A stretch of DNA of 64,000 bases from Williamsoniiplasma luminosum (GTDB lineage: Bacteria > Bacillota_I > Bacilli_A > Mycoplasmatales > Mycoplasmataceae): positions 434,001 to 498,000 of the forward strand of contig NZ_CP024963.1 in the NCBI RefSeq assembly GCF_002803985.1, given 5' to 3'. This document shows, piece after piece, positions 61,050-64,000 of this stretch; position 1 is the stretch's first letter; every line of letters starts with the position of its first letter. The notes under the pieces were generated by a model. That model searched no databases and was not told the origin of the DNA. It saw nothing but the letters and a program-made list of their open reading frames with translations. The position numbers were made by a program, and so were the translations under genes.

Positions 61050-61979
61050 ATGAAAATAATATTAACATTCGGATCAATACATATAGATTTAGTTTATAGT
61101 GTCAAGGAATTACCTTTAAAAGGACAAACTGTGGTATCCAAAAAATTTGAAACATTTTTTGGTGGAAAAGGTGCTAATCAAGCTGTTGCCATTCGTAGAA
61201 TGGGAACTGATCTAACCATGATCGGTAAAGTTGGTGATGATGCCAATGGAGATAAAACAATTGAAAATTTAATTACTAATCAAATCAATGTTGATTTGAT
61301 TAGTAAAGTTAAAGGTGTTGCAACTGGAGTTGGTTGAGTTGTTGTTGATGAACACGCAAACAATATCATAATCACTGATCTAGGAGCTGACAAAGAATTT
61401 AAAGCTCAAGAAGTTCAAAATTATCTTAAAGAAATTGAAAAAAGCGATCTTGTTTTAACTCAACTAGAAACTACCAGAGAATTCACTTTTGAATTTTTAA
61501 AACAAGCTAAAAAATTAGGAAAAACAACAATTTTGAATCCTGGACCAGCCATTAAATTAACTCCTGAAGAGATCAAAAGTTGTGATTTTATTATTCCAAA
61601 TGAAACAGAAATCGCAATTGTGCTTGGTGAAGAAGTATCTGATGATTTTGAAACAATTAAAAATCAAGCAATTAGACTTCAAAAAATTTCAAACAAACAT
61701 GTGATTGTAACCCTTGGTGAGAACGGTTCACTATATGTTGGACCAGATACAATCAAGAAATTCAATGCTGTCAAGGTGAATGCGATTGATCCAACTGCAG
61801 CTGGAGATACATTCATTGGTGCGTTCGCACATATGCTAGCACATGAAAAATCAATTCAAGAAGCGATCGAATTTGCTACATACGCATCAGCTTTAACTGT
61901 GACAAAATCTGGAGCACAATCTTCAATTCCGACACTTGAATTGGTGAATATGTTTATCCAAAGTTATAATAAGATATAA
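61050..61979 (+). CDS. rbsK: Ribokinase (PfkB family)
   Basis: Phosphorylates ribose or a related pentose/deoxyribose with ATP. 309 aa, TGA at 61335 as Trp. GSIHIDLVYSV near residue 8, FFGGKGANQAVAIRRMG near 36 (PfkB signature 1), LNPGPA near 161, PNETEIAIVLGE near 179, TLGENGSLYVG near 217 and signature 2 IDPTAAGDTFIGAFAHM near 245 with the catalytic Asp in AAGD. AAAGGAT lies 10 bases before ATG. The gene is isolated by terminators but close to the RpiR regulator and the EIIA/EIIC genes, so it may belong to the same sugar regulon. Confidence 0.92.
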
Positions 61980-62106: not shown

Positions 62107-62919
62107 TTATCTTTCTCAAATAATTTTATCTTGCTTTGAAAGATCAATGCCTTTTTTTCTTATTAGTGATGAGATTATGAAATTATTAACAAATATTTGT
62201 TGCATCTTAGTATTTCTTACAACGTCTGGTCTCGTTTCCCTTGGAAATGCAAAAAAACTAATTTTATAGTCAACTTTATCATTGATGAAAAAGGGATTAA
62301 TAGAAGTTATTGTTGCAATTTTTACGCCCCTTTTGCTAGCCATATCTATCAATTTTTCATATTCTTTTTGGCCCAAACGCTCTGAAATAATTATTATAAG
62401 ATCTTCTTCTGTCACTTGTTGTAATCTTCGGATTTCACCAAATATATCATTTGTCGCAAATGAAACAATTCCTTGTGTATTTAAAGAACTACTCAAGTCT
62501 CTGGCTGCTAAAAAGCTGTTTCCCATTCCAATGCACCAAACTTTTTTTGATGAAATAATACAATCAACTAATTTCTGTGTTTCTGGATTATCTATTATTC
62601 TTGCTGTTTGATCAATTGCATAAAATGCATAATTTTTATTAGTGATAATATCTCTAGTTTCCTCAAGCTGAGGGTCTGTTAATTCGCTTTCCTTCATTAT
62701 ATAAAAACTTTTCGAAATATAATGTTGAAAAGTTTTATAATTTTCAAAACCCAAATGTCTAACAAATTTACTAATTGTTGAAGTTGTAGAATTTGTTCTT
62801 TTACCAAAATCGACTATTGAAATATCAATAAAATTCAATGGATCTTTATTCACAATATCCAAAATAATTTTATCGCCTCTTGAAATTTTTTTATTTGAAT
62901 CATTTATTAACGTATTCAT
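62107..62919 (-). CDS. MurR/RpiR-family transcriptional regulator
   Basis: Sugar-phosphate-responsive regulator. 270 aa, with the TGA at 62116 read as Trp and the TAA stop at 62107. The N-terminal domain (about 1-75) is the HTH_6 winged helix: IVDFGKRTNSTTSTISKFVRHLGFENYKTF, shown in parts, is the family helix-turn-helix. The SIS domain (about 120-255) binds phosphosugars: CIISSKKVWCIGMGNSFLAAR with the phosphate loop and LIIIISERLGQ. AGGA is eight to nine bases before ATG 62919. It probably controls the PTS genes at 63052 and rbsK. Its promoter is overlain by a 16-base A-tract. Confidence 0.9.
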
Positions 62920-62930
62920 GATTTAATCCT

Positions 62931-62964
62931 ATTATAAAAAGTCTAACATTTTTTTTTTTTTTTT
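62931..62964 (-). promoter_or_regulatory. RpiR-family promoter with A16 homopolymer
   Basis: TATAAT on the minus strand (62936-62931) lies 12 bases before the start codon. A tract of 16 A on the minus strand (62964-62949) begins 12 bases upstream of this -10 and covers the -35 position and part of the spacer. Confidence 0.6.
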
Positions 62965-63051
62965 AGAAAATATTGGAAAAAAAATATCCGTTTAATAAAA
63001 AAAAGCATAATGTAAACAAGGGCAATTAATTTTGTTCTTGCTAGGAGATGT

Positions 63052-63504
63052 ATGCAAATTTTTAAAGAGGAGTTAATTCAATTTAATAAAAAAGCAACTG
63101 ATTGAAAAAATGCTATCAAGATTGCTTCAAAACCATTATTAAAAAACGGTTATATTAATGAAAATTTTGTTCCGAATTTAATATCGGAAACAAAGAGATT
63201 GGGTCCATATTATATTTTGGCCCCAAATTTAGCATTAGGTCATATTTCGCCAGATGGTTCTTGTTTGAAAGAAGGACTTAGTTTATTGTTTTTAGAACAG
63301 GTTGTGCCATTTAAGAATGATGGAACAGGTGATGTTAAGTTTTTATTTATACTAAGCACCACTGATCAAGATTCACACTTGAACTTATTGAAAGAATTGG
63401 CTTTAGCATTTGGTAATAGTGATTTTTATAAAGAATTCTATAATGTTAAAAATTATGCTGACATTAAGAAATTAGTGGAAAAACATCTTAAAGTTAAAAA
63501 ATAA
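63052..63504 (+). CDS. ulaC: PTS EIIA component, ascorbate/UlaC type
   Basis: Phosphocarrier of a sugar phosphotransferase system (EIIA type 2, fructose/mannitol/ascorbate fold). 150 aa. APNLALGHISPDGSC near residue 60 holds the active-site His; the family pattern is AP-x-x-x-x-P/G-H. LLFLEQVVPFKND near 82 and VKFLFILSTTDQDSHLNLLKELA near 99 (in parts) complete the domain. TGA at 63103 is Trp. AGGAGATG lies five to eleven bases before ATG 63052. It is 15 bases upstream of the EIIC gene and divergent from the RpiR-family gene. Confidence 0.85.
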
Positions 63505-63519
63505 GAAGGAGGTATTTCT

Positions 63520-64000
63520 ATGGGAAATATATTATTTTTCGCAGCAGAAAGTACCGGTAGAGATTTTTCGGAATATTTTATAAATTTTATATCTGGATTC
63601 TTTGGTACACCTGCGTTATTAATTGGTCTATTTGCATTAATAGGGACAATTATTCAACGAAAAAAAATTACAGAAATTATAACTTCAGTATTTAAAACCG
63701 TAATTGGATTCTTAATTATTGGTGGAGGAGCTGGAATAGTATCTGGAGCAATTGGCAAATTTGGTAAAGCATTCGAATTGTTATTCAGCAGACAGGGTTA
63801 TGTTGCTAATAACGATGTTATGCCTGGGCTATTAATGAGTTTTGAGCAACTACAATGAATAGCAACAGCGGGTTCATTAATATTAATATTTGGAATGTTG
63901 TTGAACTTGGTTATTGCAAGAATTTCACAAGTTAAATTTGTTTATTTGACTGGTCACTCAGCTTGATATTTTTCAACAATGTTAGCTTCAGTAATGGCTA
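63520..64000 (+). CDS. ulaA: PTS EIIC component, ascorbate (UlaA/SgaT) type, truncated by window end
   Basis: Sugar-transporting membrane subunit. Open to the right edge, 160 codons visible, with TGA Trp at 63856, 63964 region. The N-terminal EIIC (GutA-related) segments FGTPALLIGLFALIGTIIQRKK and IKTVIGFLIIGGGAGIV near residues 25-75 are the UlaA hallmark (family reads PALLLGLIALIGLLLQKK and GFLILGGGAGIV), with further helices after residue 105. AAGGAGGTA before ATG 63520. An EIIB gene should follow outside the window. Substrate could be L-ascorbate or another sugar handled by the neighbouring epimerase and kinase. Confidence 0.88.

Follow-up and report, generated by a model that had tools for sequence, protein, structure and literature searches.

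In the firefly-gut mollicute Williamsoniiplasma luminosum PIMN-1 (PMC10884336), a 16-nt homopolymer (A16) adjoins the promoter of rpiR, a gene for an RpiR-family regulator that diverges from a PTS operon, and this tract is one of 13 members of a discrete, genome-wide class. On balance, we lean towards reading A16 as an rpiR promoter tract of the contingency type, at which slippage would make the level of RpiR, and with it the output of the divergent PTS operon, vary heritably between cells. The parts of this model that we observed are the tract itself, the class to which it belongs, its position and the conserved repeat that flanks it.

Layout of the rpiR locus

The sequence studied (the window) is a stretch of 64,000 nt that takes up positions 434001–498000 of the W. 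luminosum PIMN-1 genome (GCF_002803985.1), a single contig of 1,031,560 bp. A second assembly of the species, that of strain NJ-2016 (GCA_003013295.1; Photinus pyralis genome working group), is listed at 1,029,845 bp in PMC10884336, whereas the firefly Entomoplasma CP027019 is given as 1.29 Mbp in PMC6191289 (eLife 2018); the two are probably the same genome, and the figure of 1.29 Mbp is likely to be a typing error in PMC6191289.

The first-pass annotation had assigned the regulator to the RpiR family, and a domain search bore this out, with PF01418 (HTH_6, N-terminal) and PF01380 (SIS, C-terminal) both above the cut-off. The divergent gap between rpiR and the EIIA gene measures 132 bp and contains the A16/T16 tract, which lies 29 nt from the ATG of rpiR (Table 1). 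The divergent operon has the order EIIA-EIIC-EIIB-ribulose-phosphate 3-epimerase-transketolase, from which we infer a role in the uptake of a pentose-like sugar or of ascorbate. The edges of the tract read TTTTCT-A16 towards rpiR and TCTAACA-T16-AGAAAAT towards EIIA. We found no Rfam match at the locus that would point to an RNA element.

Table 1. Features of the rpiR locus (positions in the window) and further tracts of the class (positions in the W. luminosum genome)
Feature	Position	Strand	Basis or remark
A16 homopolymer, putative slippage-prone promoter tract (T16 on +)	62949..62964 (window)	-	Sequence; one of 13 such tracts genome-wide
TATAAT, first candidate -10 of rpiR, 12 nt downstream of A16	62931..62936 (window)	-	Aligns with M. 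grammopterae TAGAAT
TAGACT, second candidate -10 of rpiR, 3 nt below A16	62940..62945 (window)	-	Same place as the -10 of other class members
AGGA, probable ribosome-binding site of rpiR	62927..62930 (window)	-	Sequence and position
TTTTCCAATATTTTCTAA, direct repeat TTTTCYAA with 10-bp period, putative RpiR operator	62963..62980 (window)	-	Conserved in W. somnilux and M. grammopterae
rpiR, RpiR/MurR-family regulator (HTH_6 + SIS), 270 aa under code 4	62107..62919 (window)	-	ORF and domain matches
rpiR start codon	62917-62919 (window)	-	
CATAAT, candidate -10 of the divergent PTS operon, 41 nt from A16	63006..63011 (window)	+	Sequence
PTS EIIA (EIIA-2 type), gene 1 of the divergent operon	63052..63504 (window)	+	ORF and domain
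PTS EIIC (ascorbate/GAT type), continues past the window end	63520..64000 (window)	+	ORF and domain
Ribokinase, 3' end facing the rpiR 3' end (head-on)	61050..61979 (window)	+	ORF
PTS EIIAB tract	904676 (genome)		
PTS EIIA-EIIB-EIIC tract	983336 (genome)		
GH1 glycosidase tract	989157 (genome)		
C5-cytosine methyltransferase tract, PLD/ResIII helicase gene adjacent	659055-659071 (genome)		
EcoRI-methylase-like/GmrSD-HNH operon tract (T16)	508534-508549 (genome)		

The tracts form a separate class

A whole-genome pattern search for A or T runs of at least 11 nt returned exactly 13, each of 15, 16 or 17 nt and none of 11–14 nt, and the second-longest homopolymer in the 64-kb window has 9 nt. In 162 kb of the same genome, a sample made up of the window and stretches around the tracts that takes in all 13 by design, the number of runs falls from 592 of length 6 to 229 (length 7), 69 (length 8), one (length 9) and zero (lengths 10–14), followed by the 13 runs of 15–17 nt. 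Only about 0.15–0.4 runs of at least 15 nt would be expected in the whole genome, whether from intergenic composition or by extrapolating the decay of run lengths. The 15–17-nt tracts stand apart as a class of their own and do not simply extend the run-length distribution. Outside the 16-mer class, the sampled part of the genome very sharply avoids A/T runs of more than 8 nt.

All 13 tracts are intergenic and lie upstream of genes; lipoprotein or DUF285 surface proteins stand behind seven of them, and sugar-uptake and DNA-modification genes behind others (Table 1). Surface-protein, sugar-uptake and DNA-modification genes are the usual classes of contingency loci, and this choice of targets is one point in favour of a contingency-type reading. 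The C5-methyltransferase tract marks a candidate phase-variable restriction-modification system. The tracts at 342477 and 348583 belong to a large lipoprotein gene that is tandem-duplicated; the two copies are 6.1 kb from each other, and their A16 promoters are identical. Ahead of the T16 at 508534 stands a long inverted repeat, AAATTTTGCAGT..ACTGCAAAATTT. As that strand has no clear gene end at this point, the repeat may serve as an operator or attenuator and not as a terminator.

The class extends beyond this species, with eight tracts in W. somnilux, three in W. lucivorax, none in E. freundtii and four in Mesoplasma florum L1; the same 16-mer class is found in Entomoplasma ellychniae and in Mesoplasma, and, across the family, runs of at least 15 nt occur in 52 of 60 genomes. 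The length is exactly 16 nt in 56 of the 84 tracts collected from 11 genomes, a count in which, as in the other class counts, tracts of related species are non-independent. In M. coleopterae, a T15 and an A17 stand back to back as a 32-nt T-then-A run, approximately 340–355 nt from the ORF on one side.

Among tracts with one clear target, TTG occurs at the gene-side 5' edge in 12 of 19 cases in the same genus and 25 of 39 in other genera, compared with 2/19 and 5/39 at the opposite edge and a background of 4.4%. The commonest form of the class, TTG(C)-[A/T]16-G-TANNNT, would most simply be read as a -35 element, a homopolymer spacer and a -10 element. Matches to five of the six positions of TATAAT number 25 at offsets 0–5 after the tract, against approximately 8.8 per six positions further on; this enrichment is modest, so that the TTG edge is the main support for the spacer model. 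The coding strand may carry A or T, and 19 of the 54 coding-strand T-tracts of the wider class are preceded by a stable hairpin, which makes the class heterogeneous.

These hairpins are the one point that favours the tail of an intrinsic terminator as an account of the rpiR tract. Here, however, both neighbouring genes diverge and no gene ends at the site, a terminator scan is negative at this position and shuffled sequences fold just as well as the intergenic strand; with divergent genes and no hairpin we rejected a terminator tail at this locus. Nor does a neutral or assembly-inflated homopolymer fit with 13 tracts of nearly equal length that recur in assemblies of other species from several sequencing centres, although the count of bases may be off by one. 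Taken together, a terminator tail and a neutral or inflated run constitute a very improbable explanation of A16.

Where orthologous tracts could be compared, the flanks are kept and the length differs by 1–2 nt between species. The tracts ahead of PTS EIIA genes are T15, T16 or T17 in several species, the C5-methyltransferase tract is A16 or A17 across five species, and further orthologous groups show T15/T16, T16/T17 and T17/T18; these length differences are between species and at class loci other than rpiR. In contrast to the varying groups, the promoter of an ABC-ATPase-like gene has T16 in all eight copies, from Mesoplasma and W. somnilux. The first-pass annotation had raised the possibility of phase variation, and this is supported in part, that is at the level of a discrete, clade-wide class of 15–17-nt promoter tracts with a contingency-type set of genes.

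The rpiR tract compared with its class and its orthologues

The tract at rpiR resembles the rest of the class in being 16 nt long, intergenic and shortly upstream of a start codon. The TTG edge, a common but not universal feature of the class, is absent in both the rpiR and the EIIA directions. Tract placement is conserved in orthologous genes for the methyltransferase and PTS EIIA members; the rpiR orthologues of W. somnilux and M. grammopterae are without a tract. In an alignment of the gap from the three species, the homologous segment in these two is A-rich but interrupted (AAAAAGGAAAAT), and the pure A16 either arose in the W. luminosum lineage or was lost from the other two species.

This interrupted segment has a bearing on the view that A16 is a structural A-tract, that is rigid, curved and easily melted DNA acting as a UP-like element or spacer, with a length that is effectively fixed and slippage that has no regulatory role. 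That relatives have A-rich yet interrupted DNA at the same place is consistent with such a function, as are the narrow length peak at 16 across species, the invariant T16 of the ABC-ATPase-like group and the behaviour of the M. agalactiae vpma genes, where a T-tract directly upstream of the -10, as at rpiR, is reported to play no part in variation (PMC2268961). The inert vpma tract is the strongest warning against inferring switching from anatomy alone. However, interrupted A-rich DNA would do equally well as a structural element, and pure 16-mers are kept although the genome otherwise shuns runs of more than 8 nt; in addition, the targets are enriched for contingency-type genes, and the class does not keep to one base on the coding strand. 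We therefore regard a purely structural role as possible but rather unlikely.

Among approximately 44 RpiR-family loci of the order, only W. luminosum rpiR has a run of at least 11 nt within 100 nt of the start, and one other has an A17 approximately 200–240 nt away. A regulator as tract target is thus unique among the RpiR loci examined, whereas sugar uptake is a recurrent target in the clade. The first-pass annotation had considered a switched regulator of sugar uptake to be unusual; the surprise lies in the regulator, of which this is the sole case among those loci, and not in sugar uptake, whose genes are ordinary tract targets here.

In an alternative view, the target of the tract is the divergent PTS operon: serving as a T-run upstream element, it would switch sugar uptake directly rather than through rpiR. 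PTS or GH1 genes lie behind three other tracts in this genome (904676, 983336 and 989157), and T-tracts precede PTS EIIA genes in several species. At the present locus, however, 41 nt separate the tract from the candidate -10 of EIIA and 87 nt separate it from the EIIA ATG, which puts it beyond the core promoter; in the EIIA direction there is neither a TTG edge nor an adjoining TANAAT, and the conserved operator-like repeat stands in between. Given the distances, we judged direct control of EIIA to be distinctly unlikely.

Candidate -10 elements of rpiR

The first-pass annotation had described a 16-base homopolymer 12 bases upstream of TATAAT, covering the -35 and spacer region. The distance was confirmed, with T16 at 62949–62964 on the + strand and TATAAT at 62931–62936 on the - strand, but TATAAT is just one of two options for the -10, the other being TAGACT, 3 nt from the end of A16; there is no recognisable -35 at the 5' edge of the tract. 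TATAAT is the better hexamer, and a consensus promoter scan found no -35/-10 pair that includes it. Transcription in M. florum starts 6–7 nt downstream of the -10 (PMC7745072) and, by this rule, use of TATAAT would give a leader of approximately 5 nt with the AGGA cut off, whereas TAGACT as the -10 would keep the AGGA in the leader. The place and surroundings of TAGACT also match those of the methyltransferase promoters, as seen from A16-GTTAAACTTTTTATTATAGAGG in W. somnilux and A16-TGTTAGACTTTTTATAATAGG at rpiR. The choice between the two hexamers is not forced, since M. florum makes some leaderless messages (PMC7745072).

A conserved direct repeat adjoins the tract

In the alignment of the rpiR–EIIA gap, the direct repeat TTTTCYAA is conserved in W. 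luminosum, W. somnilux and M. grammopterae with a period of 10–11 bp. With two mismatches allowed, 1.6 chance matches are expected in the window, and the case for the repeat therefore rests on its conservation between species and not on its rarity in one genome. Counted by hand on the aligned sequences, the distance between the second repeat and TANAAT is 34 nt in W. luminosum and likewise in M. grammopterae. The repeat is a possible operator for RpiR. Its second copy ends in the A's that form the first bases of A16, which places the tract between the putative operator and the start of rpiR, so that indels would move the operator relative to the rpiR -10. The description as a promoter tract can accordingly be kept with a correction: the tract adjoins the rpiR promoter, lying between it and the conserved direct repeat, and is outside the core promoter of the divergent PTS operon.

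A contingency-type model for A16

In the contingency-type model that we favour, slipped-strand replication would add or delete an A, presumably at a high rate, and thereby alter the spacing and helical phase of upstream elements (the operator-like repeat and any -35 contact) relative to the rpiR -10. Such a change of spacing would be expected to alter rpiR transcription, the level of RpiR would then differ heritably between sister cells and, if RpiR controls the divergent EIIA-to-transketolase operon, so would the output of that operon. To judge by its class and the targets of that class, A16 is probably an evolved mutational switch, acting either as an on/off switch or as a dimmer. The lack of a TTG edge at rpiR, the lack of a tract in two orthologues and the one tract group with T16 in eight of eight copies speak against a switch. 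In addition, M. florum has a degenerate -35 (PMC7745072), and spacer length may therefore matter little.

The comparison with the vlp genes of M. hyorhinis, made in the first-pass annotation, is apt. In that system, indels in a poly-A tract near the -10 switch transcription (Citti and Wise 1995, as summarized in passages of PMC10502178 and PMC2268961), and the tracts of both loci belong to mollicute promoters and stand near the -10. The vlp genes encode surface lipoproteins, whereas the product of rpiR is a cytoplasmic regulator that has a SIS domain, of the sugar-phosphate type, and the rpiR tract abuts a putative operator and is a candidate switch. In M. arthritidis maa2 and M. mycoides vmm, indels in the -35/-10 spacer are cited as turning transcription ON or OFF (summary in PMC2268961); most of the Williamsoniiplasma and Mesoplasma tracts look like such spacers (TTG-N16-TANNNT), but the rpiR tract has no TTG edge and the vmm repeat is a dinucleotide. 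Phase-variable sugar uptake itself has a precedent in a related mollicute, as the glucose-PTS permease of M. mycoides is described as switching ON and OFF (Gaurivaud 2004, as cited in PMC3711806); there the permease itself is truncated, whereas at rpiR the promoter of a regulator would vary. Homopolymeric and dinucleotide contingency loci, 5' VNTRs at membrane-protein genes, also lie 5' of lipoprotein genes in M. capricolum, a member of a related clade, but their targets are surface proteins and the passage concerned mentions no regulator or PTS target (PMC2996958, citing Wise 2006).

A limited literature search found no description of such tracts in Williamsoniiplasma, Entomoplasma or Mesoplasma, although an earlier report is possible, and neither phase variation nor homopolymers turned up in a search of the main M. 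florum transcriptome paper (PMC7745072). The rpiR tract would add a regulator to the targets of an already known type of switch; the original observation is confirmed, and the case for a switch has gained strength for the class as a whole and is unproven for rpiR. More tentatively still, the tracts could constitute a clade-wide, phase-variable regulon of A/T16 promoters that takes in surface proteins, DNA methylation and sugar uptake and that, in W. luminosum, has captured a transcription factor, so that a single slipped base would reset a sugar operon by shifting the operator relative to the -10.

In animal-pathogenic mycoplasmas, phase variation through promoter tracts is known, and the usual explanation is immune evasion, whereas Williamsoniiplasma and Mesoplasma are taken to be benign mollicutes of insects and flowers. 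If the model is correct, insect-gut commensals use the same architecture over sugar uptake, DNA methylation, a regulator and surface proteins, and bet-hedging on diet and phage would also have been selected. It would matter equally for M. florum, a near-minimal chassis for synthetic biology that carries tracts of this kind.
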